From NCBI GenBank assembly GCA_017307505.1, contig JAFKEE010000027.1, forward strand, positions 124,001 through 188,000: a DNA stretch of 64,000 nt. Reading direction: 5' to 3'. Position numbers and translations under genes: made by a program. The notes under the pieces are model-generated. The model saw only the letters and a list, made by a program, of their open reading frames with translations, did no database searches and was not told the DNA's origin. The number at the start of each line of letters is the position of its first letter. The first letter of the stretch is position 1. Of this stretch, positions 42,718-60,057 are shown one piece after another. Source of the stretch: Acidobacteriota bacterium. Lineage in GTDB: Bacteria > Acidobacteriota > Terriglobia > Bryobacterales > Bryobacteraceae.

Positions 42718-42721
<4 letters not shown>
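42533..42721 (-). CDS. DUF2892 small membrane protein
   Basis: A 62-residue protein with two membrane helices ('[16 protein letters not shown]' and '[23 protein letters not shown]'), matching the transmembrane part of YgaP-type (DUF2892) proteins, including the conserved NWCP. It overlaps the RND pump stop by 4 nt (ATGA), so it belongs to the efflux operon, where it may bind the cysteine-linked sulphur or simply accompany the pump. Confidence 0.85.
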
Positions 42722-45887
<3,166 letters not shown>

Positions 45888-45891
<4 letters not shown>

Positions 45892-47060
45892 GGGCGCACC
45901 TCGACCTTGCCGCCATCGGCGAGATTGTTGGGCGCGGGCGAGACGACGGACTCACCGGGCTGCAGTCCGCTGAGGACTTCGACGCGGCCGGCGGTGCGGG
46001 CTCCGGTGGTGATGAGACGGCCGCGGGCGATGCCGTTGTCGACGACGAAGACGCGCTGGACCTGGCCCTGTTCCAGGAGGGCCATGACGGGGATGGTGAG
46101 GGCCTGCTTGGAGCCCTGGGCAAAGCGGGCACGGCCGAACATGCCGCTACGGAGGGGGCCGGCCGCGGCGAGGCCGATCTTGACGGTGAAGGAGCGGGAG
46201 GCGGGATCGAGGGCGGGGACGATCTCCTCGACGCGGGCATCGAGCGGGTGATCCACCGATTCGAGATCGACCTTTACTGCCTGGCCCGGGCGGATGGTGG
46301 CGAGGCGGGCTTCTTCGACGGCGGCTTCCAGGCGGTAGCTGCCGGCCTGTTCCACTACCAGCAGGGGCATGCCGGGCGCAGCGAGCATGCCGGGCTCCGC
46401 TTTGCGTTCGATGACGATGCCGGTGAAGGGGGCGGTCACTTCGGTGTAGCCCCGCATGACGGACGCCTGGGCTACCGCTTCGGTGGCTTGCCGGATCTTC
46501 TGGTCGAGCTGGGTTCGTTTTGCTCTGGCCATTTCGTAGTTGGCCTGGGCCATGCGATGGCGGGCGCTGACTTCGTCGAACTCCTGGGGCGTGATGGATT
46601 TCTGATCGTAGAGGTTCTTCATGCGGCCCAGGGTGGAGGCGGCGAGATCGAGTTGGGCTTTGGCGGCGGCGATGGCGTTGTCGATTTCGGGGATGGCGCC
46701 GCGGGCCTCTTCGCGGGCGGCTTCGGCCTGTCGGACGCTGGTTTCAATCTCTTTGGCTTCGATGACGGCAACGACCTGGCCGGCCTTCACCGTGTCGCCC
46801 GCCTGGGGCTTGAGCTCCCGGATATAGCCCATGACGCGGGCCGAAAGGACGCTGGTGGTGCGGGCCTTCACGGTGCCGGTGGCGACATACTCGTCCGGCA
46901 TGTCTTCCTGGGCGGTCCGGATGACGCTCACCTTGACGGCGGGCCCGTCCTCGGCCTTCTTCGGTGCGGGCTTCTCTCCGCCGCAGCCGGTGAGCCAGAT
47001 CGCGGCCAGACCGAGGGCCGCCAGCTTGGTCGAGTTACTGCAGAACATTCGAGTCTCCAT
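45888..47060 (-). CDS. RND efflux periplasmic adaptor (membrane fusion protein)
   Basis: A 390-residue lipoprotein adaptor. The lipobox is 'LTGC' near residue 26. A biotinyl-lipoyl motif ('[20 protein letters not shown]') precedes a helical hairpin rich in Ala/Glu, then '[18 protein letters not shown]' and a beta-barrel with 'LQPGESVV'. It joins the pump to the outer-membrane channel. ATG 47060 has AAGGA 8 nt upstream and overlaps the TolC-like gene by 26 nt. Confidence 0.92.
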
Positions 47061-48351
47061 TCAGAATTCCTTCGGCCTGCTCCACGGCGACGGCCGCCAG
47101 ACGTTGTTCATAGATCGAACCCAGGCGGCGCATTTTGGCGTCCAGCAGGGCGGTTTGGGCGCGCAGAAGATCAGTGACGGTAGCGAGGCCGTTCGAATAG
47201 CGATTGCGCAGGATGCGGAGGCTCTCCTCGGCCTGGGCGATGGTGGCGTCGGTGACCTGGATGCGCTCAGTGGCGGAGTCGAAGTCGGCCTGGGCGCGGC
47301 GGACCTCCAACTGGACGGCGCTCTGCATCTGACGCTGGCCCGCGGCGGCGGCGCCGGCCATGGACTGGGCTTCGGCCACGGCGTTTCGGGTGCGATTACC
47401 GTCAAAGAGGGTCCACTTCAGGCCGGCGGCAAACATCCAGTTGGCTCCGCCCTTCGTGGCGAAGTTCTGGCGGTCGGCTTCAAAGGATCCGCGCAGGAAG
47501 AACTGGGGCCAGTAGCCGGCCTTCGCGGCGGCCGCCTGGGCGGAGGCGGCTTCCTGGCCTAAGCGGGCCATCTCGAGTTCCGGCCGGCGGGCGGAATCCG
47601 TGGTGACTTTGGCGGCCGGGGCCGGGGTGAGTTCCGTGGTGAGTTTGTGTTGGGTGTCGAGCGGCAGGCCGAGGGCGTCGTTCAGGGCAGCCTGGGCGAT
47701 GCGGAGGTCGGCCTGGCGGCGGATGACCTGTTCGCGCATGGCGGCGACATGCACCTTAATAGAGAGGACGTCGGCGTCGGTAGCCATGCCGGCGGCACGG
47801 ATGGTTTCGGCGCGGGCCTGATCGGCTTCGGCGGTCTTGAGGGCCTCGCGGGCCACAGTAAGACCTTCCGTGGCGAGGGTGACGCCGTGGTAGGCCCGGG
47901 CGGTGCCGGCGGCGAGCATCAGCTCCGCGGACTTCTTTTCTTCTTCCGAGATCTTGCGGCCGATCTCGGCGGCGTGGATGGTCTTGCGGAGGCCGCCGAA
48001 ATCATAAACCAGCTGTTCCGCCGTCACCATGGACTGGAAGTTGTTCAGCGGGTCGGGCCGGTTCAGGGCACCCAGGGCGAAGTTGTTGGCGGTGAACTGG
48101 CGCTGGGTGAGCAGGGCTCCGAAGACGTAGACGGGATTGTTGCCGGACTGGAACATTTCGGTGTAGCGCACCTGGGGCATGAGTCCGCCGCGAGCCTGTT
48201 CGACGCGGGCGCCGGCGGCCTGGACACGAGCCGTGGCGGCCTCGATGGCGGGGTGCTTGGCCAGCGCCATTTTCACGGCTTCGCGAAGGCTCAGGGGATC
48301 CTGTGCCCGGGCGCTGAGGGCGGCCGCGATCGAAAGAAAGATGATTCTCAT
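47035..48351 (-). CDS. TolC-family outer-membrane efflux protein
   Basis: A 438-residue outer-membrane channel with a signal peptide (MRIIFLSIAAALSARA) and the twofold TolC repeat: 'LSLREAVKMALAKHPAIEAA', 'QRQMQSAVQLEVRRAQADF', 'NRYSNGLATVTDLLRAQTAL'. It completes the RND system and is the first gene of the four-gene operon. ATG 48351 gives a normal signal peptide; the ribosome site is not strong. Divergent OsmC gene lies 89 nt away, with a perfect palindrome between them. Confidence 0.9.
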   Translation of the reverse strand: MRIIFLSIAAALSARAQDPLSLREAVKMALAKHPAIEAATARVQAAGARVEQARGGLMPQVRYTEMFQSGNNPVYVFGALLTQRQFTANNFALGALNRPDPLNNFQSMVTAEQLVYDFGGLRKTIHAAEIGRKISEEEKKSAELMLAAGTARAYHGVTLATEGLTVAREALKTAEADQARAETIRAAGMATDADVLSIKVHVAAMREQVIRRQADLRIAQAALNDALGLPLDTQHKLTTELTPAPAAKVTTDSARRPELEMARLGQEAASAQAAAAKAGYWPQFFLRGSFEADRQNFATKGGANWMFAAGLKWTLFDGNRTRNAVAEAQSMAGAAAAGQRQMQSAVQLEVRRAQADFDSATERIQVTDATIAQAEESLRILRNRYSNGLATVTDLLRAQTALLDAKMRRLGSIYEQRLAAVAVEQAEGILNGDSNVLQ

Positions 48352-48385
48352 TCGCACGAAAGAAATGATGCGTTTTTCCGCACAC

Positions 48386-48399
48386 GGTGACATGTCACC
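48386..48399. promoter_or_regulatory. Perfect 14-bp palindrome between efflux operon and osmC
   Basis: GGTGACATGTCACC is an exact palindrome placed 35 nt upstream of the TolC start and 41 nt upstream of the OsmC start. A regulator binding here could act on both. No regulator gene adjoins. Confidence 0.65.
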
Positions 48400-48439
48400 T
48401 CGGCGGTTTGACTGCATCTTTGCAGGTGAAGGCATTTAT

Positions 48440-49893: not shown

Positions 49894-50235
49894 ATGCCGA
49901 AGCGCGATACCCCCGATATGCTCCAGGGCACCCTGGACATGCTGATCCTGCAGACCCTGATGATGGGGCCGGCTCATGGCCATACCATCGCCCATGTGAT
50001 CGAGCACCGGTCCGAGGAGGTTTTGCAGGTGGAGCACGGGTCGCTGTACCCGGCGCTGCACCGGCTGGAAGACCGCGGCTGGATCGCCTCGTTCTGGGGT
50101 ACTTCCGAAAACAATCGCAAAGCCCGCTATTACCGGCTGACCCCGGCCGGCCGCAAGCAACTGGTGGCCGAGACGGATCGCTGGACGCAACTGGCACGCG
50201 CCGTGGAGCGTGTGATCCGGCCCGTCGAGGAGTAA
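49894..50235 (+). CDS. PadR-family regulator
   Basis: A 113-residue winged-helix repressor of the short PadR type ('[20 protein letters not shown]', '[17 protein letters not shown]', '[16 protein letters not shown]'). Its stop overlaps the ADOP start by 1 nt (TAATG). This pairing of a PadR gene directly with an ADOP gene is a trademark of acidobacterial genomes. An inverted repeat abuts its start. Confidence 0.93.
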
Positions 50236-52895
50236 TGGCTATGGGCTGGATGAAGTATTTCCGCAGGGCTCAATGGGAACGGGAGCGGGCGGAGGAGATC
50301 GACTCCTATATCGAGATCGAGACGGCCGAGAACGAGGAGCGCGGAATGGCTCCGGAGGAGGCCCGGGCGGCGGCGCTGCGCAGGTTCGGCAACCGGCAAC
50401 TGGTGCAGGAGGAGATTCGCGAGATGAATACGATCCGGCCGGTGGAGAGCAAGCTGCGCGACCTGCGGTATGCGGCGCGGGCGCTGCGGCGGAGTCCTGG
50501 GTTTTTCTGCACAGCCGTGCTGACGCTGGCTCTGGGGATTGGCGCGAACACGGCCATCTTCAGCATTGTCGACAGCCTGTTATTGCGGCCGCTGCCGTAT
50601 CCGCGGGCGGACCGGCTGGCGCAGATTTCGCTGGAGTTCCTGGGGCAGGGCGGAGGGTTGAATACGGCGGTGAACGGCCGGATCTGGGAGATGGTCCGGG
50701 ATGGAGCGCCGGCGTTGGACAAAGCGGTCTACAGCGCTTCGGTGACTGGGATCAATCTGGCCTTCCCGGGTCAGAACCGGGCGGAGTTCGCGCGGCAGCA
50801 GCGGGTGGGTAGCGGATATTTCCGGGTGCTGGGCGTGGCGCCGATGGTGGGGCGCGAGTTTTCCGCGGACGAGGACCGGGTGGGCGGTCCGCCGGTGGCG
50901 GTGATCAGCCACGCCCTGTGGCAGCGGGTGTTCGCGTCGGATCCGGCGGTGACGGGCAAGGTGATTCACCTGCGCGGGGAACCGCACGAGGTGGTGGGCG
51001 TGATGCCGGCGGAGTTCCGGACCAATTCCGTGGTGGATGTGTGGACGCCGTTGCGGCCCAGTACCACCGGCGAGGGGCAGGGCACGAACTATCACGTCAT
51101 TGCCCGCCTGCCGGACAGCCTGTCGTGGGCGTCGGTCCAGCAGCAACTGGCGGCGCTCTGGGCGGCGCGCCCGAGAACGCGGAGCGCCAACCAGCCGGAG
51201 GAGTACCGTCTGATTGCGTTTCCGCTGCAGGCGAGCTTCACCCTGGAGATCCGGTCTCCGCTGCTGATCCTGTGGAGCGCGGTGGGCATGGTGCTGCTGA
51301 TTGCGTGTGTGAACATTGCCAGTTTGCTGCTGGCGCGGGCGGGCAGCCGGTCGCGGGAGCTGGCGACGCGGCTGGCGTTGGGCTGCGGGCGGGCCGGTGT
51401 CGTGCGGCAGTTGCTGACGGAGAGTGTCCTGGTGTCGATGGCGGGCGGGCTGCTCGGGCTGGCGCTGGGGGCTCTGGCGCTGGGCGGCCTGGGACGGCTG
51501 GCCGGTGACCTGTTCCCGGTATGGCAGCCGGTTCAGGTGGATGGGCGGGTGCTGGCTGTCACGTTGGGCCTCTCGCTGTTGACCAGCCTGGTCTTCGGCC
51601 TGGCGCCGGCGCTGCATTTCAGCCGGATCGACATCCAGGGGAACCTGATCCAGGGCGGCAGCCGTGGCCATGCGGGGCGGGCGAATCACTGGCCGCAGCG
51701 CTTCCTGGTGGTGACGGAGGTTGCGTTGGGGGTGATTCTGCTGGTCTCGGCTGGACTGCTGGTGCGGAGTTTCGCTCATCTGCGCGGGCTGGACCCCGGG
51801 TTCGATCCGAATCGCGTCCTGACGGCCAGCTTCTCCCTGCAGGACGCTCGATATAAGGATTCGCAGGCGGTAGGCCGGCTGTTCCGGGCCGGTTTGGAAC
51901 GGATGAAGCAGATTCCGGGCGTGGAATCGGCGGCGGTGACCTTGAGCCTGCCGTTCGAAGGCGCGCTGAACGTGGGCTTCCACCGGCTGGATGGGCCGGC
52001 TGCGCGGGAGCAGGGCCGCAACGAGATCACGAACATCACCTATGTGACTCCGGGCTATTTCGAGACGATGCGGATCCCGTTGCGGCGAGGCAGGCTGCTG
52101 CAGGATTCGGACTCGGCGTCGACGGGCCTGGTGGCGTTGGTCAACGACGCCTTCGTGGCTGAGTATTTCCGGGAGCAGGAGGCCGTTGGCAGCCACCTTC
52201 AGGTGGGGCGCCAGCAGTTTGAGGTGGTGGGCGTCGTGGGCAATGTGCAGTCGGGCGCGGGTTGGGGCCGATTTGGACCCTACGGCCAGGTGCCGTTCCT
52301 CTATGTTGCCTCGGGGCAGGTGGCTGGTGAGTTGCTGGCCTCCGCGCATACCTGGTTTGCTCCGCACTGGGTGGTGCGGGGGAACGGCAGCGTCGCCGCA
52401 TTGAAGGCGGGGATGCAGCAGGCCGCCGCGGCCGTGGATCCGCTGCTGCCGATTTCCGGTTTCAAAGCAATGGACGAGGTGCGCGCCGGCACGCTGGGGA
52501 TGGAGCGCTTCATGATGTCGCTGCTGGCCGGACTGGCGGGCCTCTCGCTGCTGCTCTCGGGGATTGGTCTCTACGGGCTGATCTCGGGGAGCGTGGTGGA
52601 GCGAACCCGGGAGTTGGGCATTCGCATGGCGCTGGGGGCTACGTTTGGGCGGGCGGTGCGTTCCGTGGTGCTGCCGGGCCTGTGGCTGACGCTGGCGGGT
52701 GTTTCGATTGGCCTGCTGGGCGCGATGGCGGCAACCCGGGTGCTGCGCAGCATGCTGTGGGGGGTGACGACCACGGATCCGCTGACGCTGGGCGGGGTAG
52801 CGGCGGGGCTTTTGCTGGTGGCCGTGCTGGCCAGTCTGGCTCCGGCGCTGAGAATTCTTCGCCTGGATCCGGCAAATACTTTGCGGCATGAGTGA
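50235..52895 (+). CDS. ADOP-type ABC-transporter permease (MacB/FtsX-like)
   Basis: An 886-residue protein of the acidobacterial duplicated orphan permease family. It begins with the permease prefix 'ERERAEEIDSYIEIETAENE', then a membrane helix ('SPGFFCTAVLTLALGIGANT'), a MacB-like periplasmic core, a three-helix FtsX segment, a second core and a final FtsX segment ('RTRELGIRMALGA'). There is no ATP-binding gene nearby, as usual for this family, and its substrate is unknown. Its expression is probably under the adjacent PadR. Confidence 0.93.
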   Translation: MAMGWMKYFRRAQWERERAEEIDSYIEIETAENEERGMAPEEARAAALRRFGNRQLVQEEIREMNTIRPVESKLRDLRYAARALRRSPGFFCTAVLTLALGIGANTAIFSIVDSLLLRPLPYPRADRLAQISLEFLGQGGGLNTAVNGRIWEMVRDGAPALDKAVYSASVTGINLAFPGQNRAEFARQQRVGSGYFRVLGVAPMVGREFSADEDRVGGPPVAVISHALWQRVFASDPAVTGKVIHLRGEPHEVVGVMPAEFRTNSVVDVWTPLRPSTTGEGQGTNYHVIARLPDSLSWASVQQQLAALWAARPRTRSANQPEEYRLIAFPLQASFTLEIRSPLLILWSAVGMVLLIACVNIASLLLARAGSRSRELATRLALGCGRAGVVRQLLTESVLVSMAGGLLGLALGALALGGLGRLAGDLFPVWQPVQVDGRVLAVTLGLSLLTSLVFGLAPALHFSRIDIQGNLIQGGSRGHAGRANHWPQRFLVVTEVALGVILLVSAGLLVRSFAHLRGLDPGFDPNRVLTASFSLQDARYKDSQAVGRLFRAGLERMKQIPGVESAAVTLSLPFEGALNVGFHRLDGPAAREQGRNEITNITYVTPGYFETMRIPLRRGRLLQDSDSASTGLVALVNDAFVAEYFREQEAVGSHLQVGRQQFEVVGVVGNVQSGAGWGRFGPYGQVPFLYVASGQVAGELLASAHTWFAPHWVVRGNGSVAALKAGMQQAAAAVDPLLPISGFKAMDEVRAGTLGMERFMMSLLAGLAGLSLLLSGIGLYGLISGSVVERTRELGIRMALGATFGRAVRSVVLPGLWLTLAGVSIGLLGAMAATRVLRSMLWGVTTTDPLTLGGVAAGLLLVAVLASLAPALRILRLDPANTLRHE

Positions 52896-53793: not shown

Positions 53794-54882
53794 CTACCGG
53801 CGCGTTTTGAGATACGCCAGCAGGTCCGACATGTCGGTATTCTCGAACCTCGGCCACTTGATGCCCTGGCTCGCCATCTGCTTCTGCATCGACGGGCCAT
53901 GACCCCAGAGGACCGAGATCATCTCGTACGAATTGGCGCGGTCGCCCATTGCCAGCTTCGGCGCCTGCCCTTTGTCGTGACAGGTGGCGCAACCCCGGGT
54001 TTCGAAGACCTTCTGGCCGCGGGCAGCCACACCGTCGTCCGTGGTGAACTGCAGCGCCCAGATGTAGCCGACCAGGCGGCGCATCTCCTCGGGCAGCAGT
54101 TCGGACTGCTGTTTCATCTTGGAGGAGTGGTTCCACATCGACGCGGCAAACTCACTGGCCGTGCGCATGGACGACTTCTTGGCCAGGCTGTTGTCGCCGA
54201 CATGGCAGCCGATGCAGCCCTTGGCCTGGAACAGCGCCTCACCCGTGGTGGGCGAGGCGGGGGCAAACTCCGGCTTCAGGTTTTTGGTCTGCGGGAGGTT
54301 CTGGAGGTAGACCGAGATGTCGTTCATCTCCAGGGCGGTGAGGACGGGCATCTTCATGCCCTTGGCATTCATCGTGTCCCGCATCTTGGGCGAGTGGTTC
54401 CACATCTGGCGGGCCAGCTCGATGGGATCGGTGACAGAGGCCCACTTCATGACCGGGGTGCCGCCCAGGCCATTGGCGGAGGTGATGTTGTGGCACTCGG
54501 CGCAGCCCTTGGATACGAAGAGCTGGCGGCCGCGGCCGGCGTCGCCCTTCTTTTCGAAGTAGCGGGCGGCGAAGAAATAAGCGAAGAGATCGGCCGACTG
54601 CTGGCTGTCCAGCTTGGGCTTGGTCAGGTTCGCCTTCTCCATGGCCGACCACATCTGGGGTGCATGATTCCACATCAGCGCCGCGAGGTCGGAGGGAGAG
54701 TAGCCCCGGCTGGAGCGTTTGCCCAGGTCCGGAGCCATCTTGCCGCCTTCGCCGTTGACGCTGTGGCAGGTTTCGCAGTTCTGACTCTTGAAGAGCGCCG
54801 CGCCGCGCGAGGAGTCGCCCACCAGGACTGCTGCCTGGGAGACTACCGCGCCGGCGACCAATGCTAGGAAAATCCGCTTCAT
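53794..54882 (-). CDS. Tetrahaem c-type cytochrome with fourfold internal repeat
   Basis: A 362-residue exported protein (signal MKRIFLALVAGAVVSQA) with four CxxCH haem sites: CETCH, CAECH, CIGCH and CATCH. Each sits in a unit of about 85-100 residues that ends in a matching segment: MWNHAPQM, MWNHSPKM, MWNHSSKM and LWGHGPSM, whose Met probably is the sixth haem ligand. It is thus four fused monohaem cytochrome c domains. It is the last gene of the porin-cytochrome block and starts 16 nt after the barrel gene, so it may be the periplasmic carrier feeding it. Confidence 0.87.
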   Translation of the reverse strand: MKRIFLALVAGAVVSQAAVLVGDSSRGAALFKSQNCETCHSVNGEGGKMAPDLGKRSSRGYSPSDLAALMWNHAPQMWSAMEKANLTKPKLDSQQSADLFAYFFAARYFEKKGDAGRGRQLFVSKGCAECHNITSANGLGGTPVMKWASVTDPIELARQMWNHSPKMRDTMNAKGMKMPVLTALEMNDISVYLQNLPQTKNLKPEFAPASPTTGEALFQAKGCIGCHVGDNSLAKKSSMRTASEFAASMWNHSSKMKQQSELLPEEMRRLVGYIWALQFTTDDGVAARGQKVFETRGCATCHDKGQAPKLAMGDRANSYEMISVLWGHGPSMQKQMASQGIKWPRFENTDMSDLLAYLKTRR

Positions 54883-54898
54883 ATTGCTCCTCCGGCCC

Positions 54899-56896
54899 TT
54901 ACATCAGGAACCGCACGCCGCCGGTGAACATATTCGACCGGAAGCCCTCGTAGTAGTAGTAGGGCTGGTGCAGCCCATAGTACTTCCACTCCGAGAAGAA
55001 CTCCAGCTTGGGTGTCACGGGCAGTTGGATCCTGCCTTGCGGCTGGTAGTAGTTCGACGGGCGGGTGCCCGCCGTTCTCACGAATGAGCCGCCAAAGGAC
55101 AGACGTCCACTGTAGTTCTTGCCGAGGGGCAACCGCAAGTCGGCCATCAGGGTGCCGCTGTGCGCATTGTCCCGGTAGAGCGACTGCACCGGGAAGAGTC
55201 CCAGCGGATAGAGGTAATTGAAGTCGCTCTTGATGGTGGAGCGCGTATAGTCCGCGATGATGCTGATCTTCTTGCCGTCGTTGGGCAGCCACTGCAGGTT
55301 GGCCGAAGTGGACTGGGAGACAGCGTTGAGGTTGATGCCCGTGGTGGGGTTCTTGTTGTCGAACCGGGCGTAGATCAGGTTGAACAACATGCTCTTGGGC
55401 AGAGTGACACGGCTCTGGAGGTTGATGCGCTTGGTGTCCATGAGGCCGCTGCGGTAGTAGGTCTTGATGCCGTTGGCCAGTTCGAAGTCGCCGGTGACAG
55501 TCAACCGGGTAACCGGCCGGGCGAGGAAGCCGAACAGCCCGACGTGGCGCTGCAGTTCGCCGCGCTCCACCGGGTTATCGGTGATGAACTGGTTTGCCTT
55601 GAGGACGACATCGCCCCACTCGTAGCGGTAGCCGCCGCGCACGGTGTACTGCTTGGAGATGTCATAGAGGGCTTCCACCTGCTGCCGGTTGCGGCTGACG
55701 TCGAGACGTTCGCCGTCGGTACCGGTGACCGGCGTGCCGGTGGTGGCCGTAGAGGTCAGGAAGTAAGAGGTGGTGAGGACGCCGCTGCCGCTGGTATGGA
55801 AACGGTCGGTCTCCCAGGTGGTGCGGACGCGCAGGCGTTCCATGGGCCGGAGTTCCGCCGACGCCGTCGCGGCGGTGTGCGGCATGCGCACATTGCCGTA
55901 GTAGGAGTCGGTGATCTGCGGGATGATCAGCAGCGGGTCGTCGCCCGAAACCAGGCTGCCCTTGAGCGTATCGTTATAGGAAGCGAACGTCTTGGGCGAG
56001 GTGCGGACCACTGAGCCGGAGAGATCCAGCCAGTTCCACGGGCTGGCCGTGAGCAGTGCCTTGGTATAGGCGCCGTTGCCGCGGACGCGGTAGTACTGAG
56101 CACCGCTCAACAGGTAAAGGGACTGGCCGAGGTACGGCGAGGTCCGGTTGCCGGTGAGCTTGTCGGTGGAATACACACCCTGATCGTCCTTGAAGTTCGT
56201 GCCGCCCTCTTCGAGGGTGACGTGCCAGCGGTTCATCTCGATGCGAACACCGCCGCGGATTTCGTTCATCCCCCAGGTGATGAGGTTGCGCAGGGGGTAC
56301 TCGTTCATGTCGGCGACGAGCGTGGTGATGCCGTTGCCGCTGTCGGAGTTGCGCGAGTAGCCGAGGTAGGGCATGATGCGGCCGCCCGGGAACAGCGTCA
56401 GCTCGTTGTCGAAATTGCGCCGCGTGGTGTCGTAGGAGCGCTGGTTCAGATAGACGCCTTTATTCGCGGTGACATCGGCGAACGAGGGCAGGTAGTTGTA
56501 GTAGGCGATGTTCGAGTAGCTGCCCACGTAGCGGTAGACGCCACGTTTCTGCAGGTCGAACCGGGCCGTATTATAAGGATCACCGCCCCAGTTGTAGCCT
56601 TGGATGCGCAGGCTGGTGAACAGGCGGTTGGCCGCGGGTTCGTAGCCGACGTCCATGCCCAGCAGGCGGGTGCCCTGGCTGAGGTTGACCAGGCTGCGAT
56701 AGGTGCTGAAGTCGCCGGCGTGACCGACCCAGCGTGCGCCGACGTCGATATACCCGGTGAGTTCCTTCTCTTTTTGAGGCTGCGGCGATTCAGCGGCCGC
56801 CTTCTCTTCCTTCTTTTCGGTCGTCGCTTCCTTTTTCTCGGCAGACTCCTGCGCCAGAAGCGTCAGCGGCAGAAGCAATGCCAGAAAGATTCTCAT
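54899..56896 (-). CDS. MtrB/PioB-like outer-membrane barrel
   Basis: A 665-residue protein: signal peptide (MRIFLALLLPLTLLAQ), a Glu/Lys-rich linker, then a long strand-rich region with alternating aromatic residues ('YIDVGARWVGHAGDFSTYRS', 'VRGGYRYEWGDVVLKANQF') ending 'YYYYEGFRSNMFTGGVRFLM', as expected for a large barrel. Length and context fit the MtrB/PioB family of decahaem-associated porins, through which MtrA-type cytochromes pass. It overlaps the MtrA-like gene by 4 nt. Confidence 0.85.
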   Translation of the reverse strand: MRIFLALLLPLTLLAQESAEKKEATTEKKEEKAAAESPQPQKEKELTGYIDVGARWVGHAGDFSTYRSLVNLSQGTRLLGMDVGYEPAANRLFTSLRIQGYNWGGDPYNTARFDLQKRGVYRYVGSYSNIAYYNYLPSFADVTANKGVYLNQRSYDTTRRNFDNELTLFPGGRIMPYLGYSRNSDSGNGITTLVADMNEYPLRNLITWGMNEIRGGVRIEMNRWHVTLEEGGTNFKDDQGVYSTDKLTGNRTSPYLGQSLYLLSGAQYYRVRGNGAYTKALLTASPWNWLDLSGSVVRTSPKTFASYNDTLKGSLVSGDDPLLIIPQITDSYYGNVRMPHTAATASAELRPMERLRVRTTWETDRFHTSGSGVLTTSYFLTSTATTGTPVTGTDGERLDVSRNRQQVEALYDISKQYTVRGGYRYEWGDVVLKANQFITDNPVERGELQRHVGLFGFLARPVTRLTVTGDFELANGIKTYYRSGLMDTKRINLQSRVTLPKSMLFNLIYARFDNKNPTTGINLNAVSQSTSANLQWLPNDGKKISIIADYTRSTIKSDFNYLYPLGLFPVQSLYRDNAHSGTLMADLRLPLGKNYSGRLSFGGSFVRTAGTRPSNYYQPQGRIQLPVTPKLEFFSEWKYYGLHQPYYYYEGFRSNMFTGGVRFLM

Positions 56897-57861
56897 CGCA
56901 GCAACGCCCCATTCACGTTCGAACCGTGGATCTTCTGATGACAGGTGGTGCAGTTGCGGAACCGCGGGCTGCGCAGGTCGTGCAGCGCCGGAGGAATTCC
57001 GCCCACCGTCGTGGCCGCCGGGGGAGTCTGGATATTGGAGTGGCATTCCAGGCAAAGCGGGGCCACCTCCGCCCGCTTGAGCATGCGCGGGTTGACCGAG
57101 CCATGGGGCTCGTGGCAGGTGGAGCAGGGTTCATTCCGGCTGGGCGCGTGTTCGAAGACGAACGGGCCGCGCTTGTCGGCATGGCAGGCGAAGCAGCCGG
57201 GCTCACTGGCACCCGACATGCGCAGGTTGCGATTGAGGTTGCTGGCGTGGGGATTGTGGCAACCGGTGCAGCTCATGGCGCCTTCCGGGACGCGATGGTG
57301 ATTGGGTTTGACGAAACTCGCGGCCACATCCCGATGGCAGCTGCTGCATTTCTGATTGATGCCGGTGGTGCGCTTGAGCTGGTACTCGCTCGACTCCTCG
57401 CCTTGCTTGTGCATGTTGTGGCAGGAGGTGCAGGGTACGTTGTTGCGCGCATGGCTGCTTTGCAGCCGGCCGACATGGGTCTGTTGATTCTTGTGGCAGC
57501 TGAGGCACATGGCGTCGATCGCCGAGGCCTTCATCTGCTTCGGGCTGCGGATGTCATCGGCCGAATTGGTTTCGGCGTGGACCGAACCCGGTCCGTGACA
57601 CGACTCGCAGGCTTTGGTCTCCCAACCGCGCTTCTTGTTGGTTTCGAGGATGGAATGAGGATTCTTTTTAAAAGCAGTGCTGATGTCCTCGTGGCAACCC
57701 GCGCAGGTTTCCGACCCGATGAATTCTTTTTTCGCTGGCGCTGCAGGTTTAGCGGCCTGCTGCGCCGCGGATTTGTCCGGCGGCTTCTGATCCTGTGACG
57801 CACCCGCCGCCAAAACCGACAGCGCCACCGCCGCGGTCCACGGCAATAACCGGAAAGTCAT
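56893..57861 (-). CDS. MtrA/DmsE-like decahaem c-type cytochrome
   Basis: A 322-residue exported protein with ten CxxCH sites (CAGCH, CESCH, CLSCH, CTSCH, CSSCH, CTGCH, CFACH, CSTCH, CLECH, CTTCH) in a regular series, the hallmark and size of MtrA/DmsE/PioA. It would sit inside the MtrB-like barrel and pass electrons between periplasm and cell surface. Signal: MTFRLLPWTAAVALSVLAAG, then a Lys/Ala/Pro-rich linker. It overlaps the barrel gene by 4 nt. Confidence 0.92.
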   Translation of the reverse strand: MTFRLLPWTAAVALSVLAAGASQDQKPPDKSAAQQAAKPAAPAKKEFIGSETCAGCHEDISTAFKKNPHSILETNKKRGWETKACESCHGPGSVHAETNSADDIRSPKQMKASAIDAMCLSCHKNQQTHVGRLQSSHARNNVPCTSCHNMHKQGEESSEYQLKRTTGINQKCSSCHRDVAASFVKPNHHRVPEGAMSCTGCHNPHASNLNRNLRMSGASEPGCFACHADKRGPFVFEHAPSRNEPCSTCHEPHGSVNPRMLKRAEVAPLCLECHSNIQTPPAATTVGGIPPALHDLRSPRFRNCTTCHQKIHGSNVNGALLR

Positions 57862-57885
57862 GAGTTCTCCCGATCTGAGAAAAAG

Positions 57886-57911
57886 GGGCAGGTCCCTTGC
57901 GGAACCTGCCC
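57886..57911 (-). terminator. Intrinsic terminator or attenuator between omcA/mtrC-like and mtrA-like genes
   Basis: GGGCAGGT (57886-57893) pairs with ACCTGCCC (57904-57911). Read on the minus strand the hairpin is followed by CTTTTTCTC, as in a Rho-independent terminator; it would lower expression of the downstream mtrA-mtrB part relative to the surface cytochrome. Confidence 0.7.
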
Positions 57912-57927
57912 GTAATTGAGATTCAAC

Positions 57928-60057
57928 TTACTTAGCGTGCACCTTGCTGACGGCGAATTCAGCGCTGGGCCCGTGACAGGCGCCGCAGCTCTCGCCGAGC
58001 GTGGTGGTGTTCGCCAGAGCGTGCGACGCAGCATCTTTGCTGGCGTGGCAGCTCAGGCAGGCCGCCGAAGTGGTGCCGGCGGTGGTGAGCCAGCCCCTGG
58101 GATCCGTGACAGGCAGGACGCCGTTTGCCGGCGCATTCTGCGTGTTGGGGGAGTGGCACATATTGCAGTTGGAGACAGAGGCAGGCTCAGGGAACCCGAT
58201 GTCGTTGAAGTTGTTGGCGGAGTTGCCGAAGCCATAGACCGTGAAATCACGCGGCTGTTCCTTGCCGGTGTGGATGCGGTGCACCATCGAGGCCATGCTG
58301 ATGGACTCGTTCGGGGCCTGAGCAGCCGGGCGGCGGGCGGCGTCGGTCATGTTCGGGTTGTGGCAGATCACGCAATTCTGGATTTCATTGCGATTCTCGC
58401 CATGCAGGGTGAGATTGTAGTGGCAGTTGTTGCAGGTGGCGGTCTCGACGATGTGGCGGCGGGTGACGACATCCGTGCCATCGACGGAGAAGTACTTCAT
58501 ATCGTTGGGGATATTGACTTCGTACGTGCGCTGCTTCTGCGTGCCGGCGAGGACTGTCTCGTCGCTACGGCCTTCGACGGCGAGTACCCAGGTACCCTTG
58601 GCGCCGGCCGGGATGGCCTTGCTGAAGGTGTACTTATAGGTGCCCGGTCCACCGGTCATGCTGGTCACAGTAATGTTGTCCTGCACGTAGCCGTTGGTGC
58701 CGGTGGCGCTGATGCCAGTGCCGTAGTCGGTGGTGGGGCCGGCGAGAGTGATGGCCAGACGTCCGCGGCCTGCGCCAGGGATGAGTTCCTTGATATCCAT
58801 GTCGGCGCCGGAACGGTCCTTCAACGAAATGGTCAGAACCGGCTGCTGGCCGGCATTGGTGTTCTCAACGCTGACGATCTTGGCGATGGCGCCGCGGGTG
58901 AGCGAGGAGGCCTGCTCAACGACGTGCGCGCCCTTGATGGAGGCGTCGAAGTCGATTTCGCCCTGCGGGATGTGGCAGGTGGAGCACTGATTGTCGGTAG
59001 CCTGGGGCAGGCCGACGTGGCCTTCACCGGTGGTGAAGTTGGTGGTGTCGTGGCACGAACCGCAGGCGGCGCGACTCGGCTGGGTCAGCCAGGCGTCCTT
59101 CTGCTTGGCGGTGTTGCCCTGATCGTGGCACCACTGGCAGTTATTCGGTTTCGACGGCATGTTGACTTCGGAGAAGTCGCTGACGGCGTTGCCGAAGCCG
59201 ACGATCTGATACTTGCCGCCTGCCTGCACGCTGGCCAGGCTGCTGCCGGCATGGATCTTGTGCACCATCTGGGTCATGTCGATGGTGTTGTCGGTTTCCG
59301 GATTGGTGTTCTGCACGGTGGTGGTGCCGAGGGAATAGCCCGGCGCATGGCACATGATGCAGACTTCCACGCCCTTGCGGGAGCCGCCATGGAACGACAG
59401 GTCGTCGTGGCACTTGTTGCAGGAGGAGGTGCTGATGACGTCGCGAACCTTCTTCACCGCCGTGCCGTCCGGCACGAAGCTGTAGGTGGCGCTGGCGTAA
59501 TTGGTGCCGAGGTCGAACTCGCTCAGGTTCCGGCTGCCATAGACAGCGATCGTGTGGGTCGCCGTCTTGTCGTAGCTGGAAGGCAGCTTCGTCCCGAAGG
59601 TGTAAACGTACTCGCCGTCGGCCACCTTGGCAAACGATCCGCCGGTGTCACCAGACGCCTGGCGGGCCTGCTTGCCGGCCGTCGGGGCGTAGGTGCTGGT
59701 CTTCAGACGTGTTGTGTAAGCCTGATAGAACTTGTTGTTGTTCGGAATCGTGGCCAGGATAAAGCTGGCGCTCACGGCGCCCGGCGTATTGATTCCTTCG
59801 CGTTCCAGGGCAGCGCCTTTGGGATCGGTCATCTTGAACCGAACCTTCACGGTGCCATCGGACGCAATCTCATGACTCACAATCGTGAACACAAGGCCCG
59901 GACGGACGAAGTTGACTAAAGCTTCATCCGCGTAGAATGCCTTGTCGCGCTCAGTAAAGGGCGGTTTGGTGGAGCTGACCAGCGCAGTGGATGCTAACAG
60001 CACCATTACCACGAGAGTCCACTTCATCCAGCCCCTGGAGCGTTGATGCAAGCGCAT
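57928..60057 (-). CDS. OmcA/MtrC-family decahaem c-type cytochrome
   Basis: A 709-residue protein with ten CxxCH sites in two groups of five: CNKCH, CIMCH, CQWCH, CGSCH, CSTCH and CNNCH, CVICH, CNMCH, CLSCH, CGACH, each group preceded by a beta-rich domain. 'DLSFHGGSRKGVEVCIMC' and 'NLTLHGENRNEIQNCVIC' are the diagnostic pattern of OmcA/MtrC proteins, which reach out of the cell and reduce metals or humics. It has a signal peptide without an evident lipobox cysteine, unlike Shewanella MtrC. ATG 60057 follows AAGGAG. First gene of the conduit block. Confidence 0.92.
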   Translation of the reverse strand: MRLHQRSRGWMKWTLVVMVLLASTALVSSTKPPFTERDKAFYADEALVNFVRPGLVFTIVSHEIASDGTVKVRFKMTDPKGAALEREGINTPGAVSASFILATIPNNNKFYQAYTTRLKTSTYAPTAGKQARQASGDTGGSFAKVADGEYVYTFGTKLPSSYDKTATHTIAVYGSRNLSEFDLGTNYASATYSFVPDGTAVKKVRDVISTSSCNKCHDDLSFHGGSRKGVEVCIMCHAPGYSLGTTTVQNTNPETDNTIDMTQMVHKIHAGSSLASVQAGGKYQIVGFGNAVSDFSEVNMPSKPNNCQWCHDQGNTAKQKDAWLTQPSRAACGSCHDTTNFTTGEGHVGLPQATDNQCSTCHIPQGEIDFDASIKGAHVVEQASSLTRGAIAKIVSVENTNAGQQPVLTISLKDRSGADMDIKELIPGAGRGRLAITLAGPTTDYGTGISATGTNGYVQDNITVTSMTGGPGTYKYTFSKAIPAGAKGTWVLAVEGRSDETVLAGTQKQRTYEVNIPNDMKYFSVDGTDVVTRRHIVETATCNNCHYNLTLHGENRNEIQNCVICHNPNMTDAARRPAAQAPNESISMASMVHRIHTGKEQPRDFTVYGFGNSANNFNDIGFPEPASVSNCNMCHSPNTQNAPANGVLPVTDPRGWLTTAGTTSAACLSCHASKDAASHALANTTTLGESCGACHGPSAEFAVSKVHAK

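Follow-up and report, generated by a model that had tools for sequence, protein, structure and literature searches.

A probable Bryobacterales-type MtrCAB porin-cytochrome conduit and its proposed menaquinol-to-outside chain in an acidobacterial genome

The closest described relatives of the gene block analysed here are the Group 5 MtrCAB loci (Baker et al. 2022, PMC8805035). In the accessible part of that source the group is reported exclusively from Acidobacteriia, unclassified or Bryobacterales, with five acidobacterial hits. A predicted periplasmic tetrahaem cytochrome is encoded immediately downstream of mtrB in these loci and no putative inner-membrane quinone oxidoreductase lies near them; the genomes beyond the loci were not searched there. 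Acidobacterial decahaem cytochromes had been found earlier in Arctic peat (PMC3669403), and two CbcL/MtoC/MtrH and 19 ImcH homologues of Acidobacteria had been listed (PMC6295460), as far as the available text of both papers goes. Here we analysed a block of four genes at 53794-60057, on the minus strand of a 64-kb stretch (the window) of contig JAFKEE010000027.1 from an Acidobacteriota bacterium of the Bryobacteraceae. The block very likely encodes a Bryobacterales-type MtrCAB porin-cytochrome conduit, for which we propose a chain leading from menaquinol to the outside of the cell. As far as the accessible description of Group 5 allows the comparison, the conduit belongs to this already known kind.

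The transcription order on the minus strand is mtrC-like, mtrA-like, barrel and four-haem cytochrome gene. The first gene encodes an OmcA/MtrC-family decahaem cytochrome (57928..60057; 709 amino acids, ten CXXCH motifs, ATG start at 60057) and the second a DmsE/MtrA-family decahaem cytochrome (56893..57861; 322 amino acids, ten CXXCH). They are followed by the gene for an MtrB-type outer-membrane beta-barrel (54899..56896; 665 amino acids, no cysteine) and that for a four-domain cytochrome c (53794..54882; 362 amino acids, four CXXCH). From the first gene to the last, the spacing is 66 bp, then an overlap of 4 bp, then 16 bp. Translated in six frames, the window contains 25 CXXCH motifs, and because 24 of them sit in the three cytochrome genes, chance can be ruled out for the block. 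The first-pass annotation, made from the bare sequence, had claimed four genes in one minus-strand block with haem counts of 10, 10 and 4, and this is what we found. The mtrC, mtrA and mtrB genes lie adjacent in one cluster, the mtrB being recognised by the matches of its homologues and by its predicted fold. In Shewanella the gene order is C-A-B, as in the window.

The MtrC-like protein scored 516 bits against the OmcA/MtrC decahaem model TIGR03507 (curated cut-off 209.3) and carries MtrC/MtrF domains (PF22113) in the Pfam scan. A phmmer search of PDB sequences returned MtrF (3pmq, E 1.9e-28) and 6r2q_C (E 2.3e-12). The protein has an N-terminal hydrophobic stretch and no lipobox; its first cysteine is residue 213, and all 20 cysteines lie within CXXCH motifs. 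Among 61 MtrC homologues, 25 have no further cysteine and 36 have one to four extra, with a lipobox-like string near the start in six. Judging by its family, the protein is expected to form the surface end of the conduit. The MtrA-like protein scored 244.3 bits against the DmsE decahaem model TIGR03508 (curated cut-off 192.2), and its best PDB match by phmmer is 6r2q_A (E 1.6e-37, query residues 35-320). In the structure file this chain has an unusual molecule name; the title of the entry reads 'Structure of the Mtr complex'. By homology, the MtrA-like protein is expected to sit inside the barrel.

Regarding the barrel itself, the evidence is less direct. We aligned it with 26 homologues and scanned these 27 members for protein families at E values up to 1. 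PF11854 (MtrB_PioB) was reached by five members (best 3.8e-8), TIGR03509 by three (best 6.9e-4) and the model of Geobacter GSU2204 by four (best 0.0071). The AlphaFold2 model, built on an alignment of 66 sequences, has a predicted local distance difference test (pLDDT) score of 84.8. It contains 28 strands of at least three residues, which answers the earlier suggestion to predict barrel strands in 54899-56896. The best PDB fold match of the model is MtrB (6r2q_B, E 9.4e-16, template modelling (TM) scores 0.65/0.66). The remaining rows among the best 50 fold matches are mostly TonB-dependent receptors, with TM scores (query) of 0.36-0.47. Three results weigh against calling the protein an MtrB: on its own it matches no Pfam or NCBIfam model, including PF11854 and TIGR03509, the refuting condition set in the first-pass annotation; PF11854 is missed by 22 of the 27 members; and the profile of the alignment found no match among PDB sequences up to an E value of 10. 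Because some homologues reach MtrB models and the predicted fold matches MtrB, we conclude that the 665-amino-acid barrel is a divergent MtrB. Its membership in the MtrB/PioB family, as first annotated, finds no backing in a profile match of its own, is favoured by a minority of its homologues and by the predicted fold, and is not refuted.

The arrangement of the block recurs in related loci, of which the best 80 of the 120 found were used for counting. A DmsE gene stands before the barrel in all 74 loci with room for it, and an MtrC gene lies upstream in 58 of the 66 loci with room and downstream in three more. Immediately behind the barrel, 47 of the 74 loci with room have the four-domain cytochrome gene. 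Most of the named relatives are records of Bryobacterales or other acidobacterial records, and one is a Paludibaculum sp. metagenome-assembled genome (MAG; L044). The annotated MtrCAB-type conduit in an acidobacterium is supported. Two relatives on MAG contigs are labelled outside Acidobacteriota (L047 'Arcobacter' and L103 'Sumerlaeaceae'), labels which we take as binning errors. Thirty-five loci have the complete set of four genes, each at least 85% as long as the query. In these loci, protein distances of the barrel correlated with those of the cytochrome (r 0.86), MtrA (0.91) and MtrC (0.76), and those of the cytochrome with MtrA (0.84). None of 999 permutations gave values as high, and shared ancestry alone could yield such correlations.

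The genus-mate genome G006 holds the same four genes, with a barrel 92% and a four-domain cytochrome 94% identical to those of the window. We infer that this genome putatively represents Paludibaculum fermentans P105T. This strain is described as a facultative anaerobe in which Fe(III) reduction is coupled to the fermentation of sugars and polysaccharides (PMC8407742).

The fourth gene encodes a protein that has an N-terminal hydrophobic stretch and CXXCH motifs at residues 36, 127, 223 and 298, spaced 75-96 residues apart. The Pfam scan marked three stretches each of PF00034 and PF13442. In the predicted model (48-sequence alignment; pLDDT 83.9, predicted TM score 0.76) one helix pattern is repeated four times. 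The whole model had no match among PDB folds at E <= 0.001; the PDB matches of the sequence profile (60 of 74 listed) are class-I cytochromes, e.g. cytochrome c, NorC and the c subunits of cbb3 and bc1 complexes. Because of the Pfam domains and these profile matches we assign the protein to class I, and it is predicted to consist of four tandem class-I monohaem cytochrome c domains. We had also considered a NapC/CymA-type tetrahaem quinol dehydrogenase and rejected it, as PF00034 and PF13442 are present and PF03264 is absent; the match to the NrfH model is weak (20.8 bits against a cut-off of 134.2). The annotated order of surface cytochrome, mtrA and mtrB stands. The accompanying idea that the tetrahaem gene replaces a missing quinol dehydrogenase does not, given the class-I domains, the wide spacing of the haem motifs and the lack of a NapC/NirT domain. 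By position and haem count, the protein is the 'predicted periplasmic tetraheme cytochrome (c-cyt group 5)' of the accessible text of PMC8805035.

The alignment of 48 sequences also suggests how the four haems may be held. Each domain contains an invariant W-x-His, with His 73, 163, 252 and 328 present in all 48 sequences. The window protein has exactly eight histidines, four in the CXXCH motifs and the four of W-x-His. The Met ligand of class-I cytochromes usually precedes the last helix. At this place domain 4 has a Trp (48/48), domain 2 mostly a Trp (33/48, with Met in three), and domain 1 no conserved Met. Other methionines are conserved as well. One lies four residues after each W-x-His (in 48, 48, 40 and 47 of the 48 sequences for domains 1 to 4), and in domains 3 and 4, Met 267 and Met 351, located within or next to the last helix, occur in 47 and 43 of 48. 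From this pattern we tentatively prefer a bis-His coordination of the haems, with Met as the possible alternative ligand.

The first-pass annotation considered a quinol dehydrogenase to be missing and advised a search for a CymA- or Cbc-type enzyme elsewhere in the genome. We searched the organism's own genome (G000, 9.39 Mb in 75 contigs) with PF03264 and PF01292, and both searches hit contig C59 at about 30.7-33.9 kb, where two candidates are neighbours. We therefore reject the view that candidates for such an enzyme are missing. One is a CbcL-like protein (G000:C59:32165-33886; 574 amino acids) in which nine CXXCH precede a membrane domain of b561 type. PF01292 scored above its cut-off in it, and the FdnI-type model TIGR01583 reached E 1.1e-10, below its own cut-off. 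The CbcL of Geobacter has nine haems. Haem count and domain make the name CbcL fit, in a comparison with the Geobacter protein by description. The gene that follows encodes a NapC/ImcH-like protein with five CXXCH, a PF03264 hit and a NapC/NirT-like region, and its homologues have N-terminal membrane helices. We file it as ImcH-like only, and not as ImcH, because it has five CXXCH motifs against the seven given for ImcH in the available part of PMC6295460. In G006, G005 and G003 the two genes lie side by side with open frames; the search match of the CbcL-like protein in G003 crosses one TGA, at the 5′ edge of its 550-amino-acid open frame. In G006 the CbcL-like protein is 93% identical to that of the window's genome.

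In some relatives such genes lie close to the conduit. With cut-offs of E 1e-30 for ImcH-like and 1e-80 for CbcL-like proteins, and flanks of at most 10 kb, an ImcH-like gene was found in 24 of the 80 loci, a CbcL-like gene in six, either in 25 and both in five. Weaker multihaem neighbours (e.g. L061, L069, L083 and L097) were left out of the CbcL-like counts. These flank genes are on the strand of the conduit in 22 of the 25 loci, and where at least 8 kb were available on both sides, 16 of 41 loci had one or the other. We also surveyed 91 genomes of the family, including the window's own, counting a barrel match as strong below E 1e-40 and a CbcL-like match as strong below 1e-150. A strong barrel match is present in 74 of them: 52 genomes have barrel and CbcL-like protein, 22 the barrel only, one the CbcL-like protein only and 16 neither. 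Of the 53 genomes in which the CbcL-like protein matches strongly, 52 also have the strong barrel match. CbcL-like matches that were weaker or partial (e.g. G008, G041, G043 and G066) were left out, and counting G043 would give a second CbcL-only genome.

Several other multihaem proteins came up in these searches. On contig C32 of the window's genome (L132:5959-7866, minus strand) there is an NrfH (TIGR03153, 169.6 bits) with an NrfA-like pentahaem protein that scores below the NrfA cut-offs. We dropped this pair as a feed of the conduit on account of these NrfH and NrfA-like scores, and it probably serves ammonia-forming nitrite reduction. In G003, a few kb from the CbcL-like/ImcH-like pair, a frame of 935 amino acids contains 19 CXXCH (L157:10773-13580), and many relatives have long frames of about 930-1010 amino acids that are related to the same CbcL-like protein. 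Contig C38 of the window's genome carries a gene pair (L031:7739-10716, plus strand) made up of a second DmsE-type decahaem gene (TIGR03508, 265 bits) and, after it, a distant paralogue of the window barrel with 26% identity. No other CXXCH frame of at least 100 amino acids is present in the 16.6 kb fetched, and the pair is a possible two-gene PioAB/MtoAB-like conduit. Weak barrel matches like this paralogue were found in many genomes of the class.

From the protein families, the gene neighbourhood and the physiology of a relative we infer how the parts may work together, which covers complex formation, localisation, flow direction, acceptor and the feeding inner-membrane protein. Menaquinol would be oxidised at the cytoplasmic membrane by the CbcL-like protein (nine c haems and b561), the NapC/ImcH-like protein (five c haems), or both. 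The four-domain cytochrome encoded by the fourth gene would carry the electrons over the periplasm to MtrA, which is expected to sit inside MtrB. From there they would pass the outer membrane, and MtrC would hand them to Fe(III) or a different acceptor outside the cell. Where relatives ferment, the conduit could act as an electron sink rather than in full respiration. As for the periplasmic step, we tentatively propose that in Bryobacterales the gap is bridged by a string of four class-I domains which have lost the Met ligand loop and hold low-potential bis-His haems through W-x-His. This string would be fed by the CbcL/ImcH-like pair and would stand in place of a compact carrier such as STC, FccA or PpcA.

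Some observations count against a chain of this composition. In the family, 22 genomes have a barrel and no strong CbcL-like match, and the co-occurrence of the two proteins (Fisher p 1e-6) is uncorrected for shared ancestry. In the window's own genome, the NapC/ImcH-like frame is interrupted in the assembly by a run of 23 N (L131:9927-9949) and a frame change. In addition, the four-domain cytochrome gene does not adjoin the barrel in 27 of the 74 loci with room, and copies of it occur elsewhere. For ten copies chosen for lying away from a barrel, none had homologues of the conduit or of the quinol dehydrogenases in the stretch fetched (on its upstream side L146 runs off the contig). Neighbours were scanned for four of these ten (L145-L154): a GMC-type oxidoreductase lies beside the copy of L150, a pyrroloquinoline quinone (PQQ)-type propeller protein beside that of L151, and the remaining two have neighbours with no evident redox role. 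In Acidobacteriota, stand-alone four-domain W-x-His cytochromes may serve as general carriers of electrons in the periplasm. The copy in the block could likewise be a general carrier that is in the operon incidentally and has no part in the conduit path. Its place directly after the barrel in most of the loci with room argues against this, as do its distances, which track those of the barrel and MtrA with the caveat on ancestry given above. All in all, we hold an incidental presence to be somewhat unlikely and keep the cytochrome in the proposed path.

The direction of flow could also be the reverse, with the conduit taking up electrons that come from Fe(II) or some other donor outside the cell, as in MtoAB and PioAB, and the inner-membrane proteins reducing quinone. 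MtrAB-type complexes run in either direction in different organisms. A bidirectional function of MtrAB-type complexes was also suggested in PMC3669403, and PMC6295460 names no feature of the sequences by which quinol-oxidising CbcL/MtrH could be told from quinone-reducing MtoC, in the accessible text of both. On the other side, the genus-mate that is putatively P. fermentans P105T was reported as an Fe(III)-reducing heterotroph (PMC8407742). Surface cytochromes of the MtrC type, one of which is present here, are also more usual in reducers. We consider inward flow improbable and retain the outward chain to Fe(III) or another acceptor. A conduit that feeds a surface reductase for a soluble acceptor outside the cell, in the way that DmsEF of Shewanella works with DmsAB, would agree with the DmsE-named subfamily (TIGR03508) of the MtrA-like protein and is very improbable, since the best PDB match of that protein is the MtrA of the solved Mtr complex, the block starts with MtrC, and no molybdopterin reductase was seen among ten window proteins scanned on both sides of the block.

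If the tentative reading with the W-x-His string and the CbcL/ImcH-like pair is true, common soil acidobacteria would have a family-wide route in which an inner-membrane gate of the Geobacter type is coupled to an outer-membrane conduit of the Shewanella type. Bryobacterales live in soils, wetlands and groundwater. With a strong barrel match in most of the family genomes surveyed, extracellular electron transfer may be common across the family and not the speciality of a few strains.

Other genes in the window belong to transport systems. An ADOP-family duplicated permease (TIGR03434, 787 bits) is encoded at 50235-52895 on the plus strand, directly preceded by a small gene (49894-50235), presumably PadR-like. 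At 45888-48435 on the minus strand there are a resistance-nodulation-division (RND)-type efflux adaptor (above the TIGR01730 cut-off) and a TolC-like outer-membrane protein (below the TIGR01844 cut-off). The adjoining frame of 1057 amino acids (42718-45891) may be the pump.

Compared with MtrCAB of Shewanella (6R2Q), the window has a decahaem MtrC and MtrA by sequence and a large MtrB barrel by predicted fold. The differences lie in the barrel, which is 12% identical to Shewanella MtrB in the structural alignment and has no cysteine, and in MtrC, which has neither a lipobox nor cysteines outside CXXCH. The absence of a quinol dehydrogenase from the cluster is no difference, because CymA is also not encoded adjacent to mtrCAB in Shewanella (PMC8805035, accessible part). 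Our literature search, which covered top-ranked results and few subscription papers, found neither a CbcL/ImcH-like pair together with MtrCAB in Bryobacterales nor the domain make-up of the group-5 cytochrome, and this does not prove that such reports are absent. Compared with Geobacter, as far as its proteins are described in the available sources, the CbcL-like protein shares nine CXXCH and a b561/FdnI-type membrane domain with CbcL, and the ImcH-like protein shares N-terminal membrane helices followed by a NapC/NirT-like region with ImcH. In contrast, the pentahaem protein has five CXXCH instead of seven, and the two genes are neighbours here.

The likeness is closest to Group 5, in the accessible description of which we find the same order Bryobacterales, clustered mtrC, mtrA and mtrB, a tetrahaem gene after mtrB and no quinone oxidoreductase in the cluster. 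Within the cluster, the published Group 5 model lacked an entry at the inner membrane; our analysis names a candidate protein pair for it, together with a haem-ligand pattern for the periplasmic carrier. To the published description we add the inner-membrane candidates on another contig, whose homologues are encoded close to the conduit in some relatives, and the resolution of the tetrahaem protein into four predicted class-I domains. Our additions are the domain nature of that cytochrome, the candidate inner-membrane entry and how it is linked to the conduit, and how widely the system occurs in the family.

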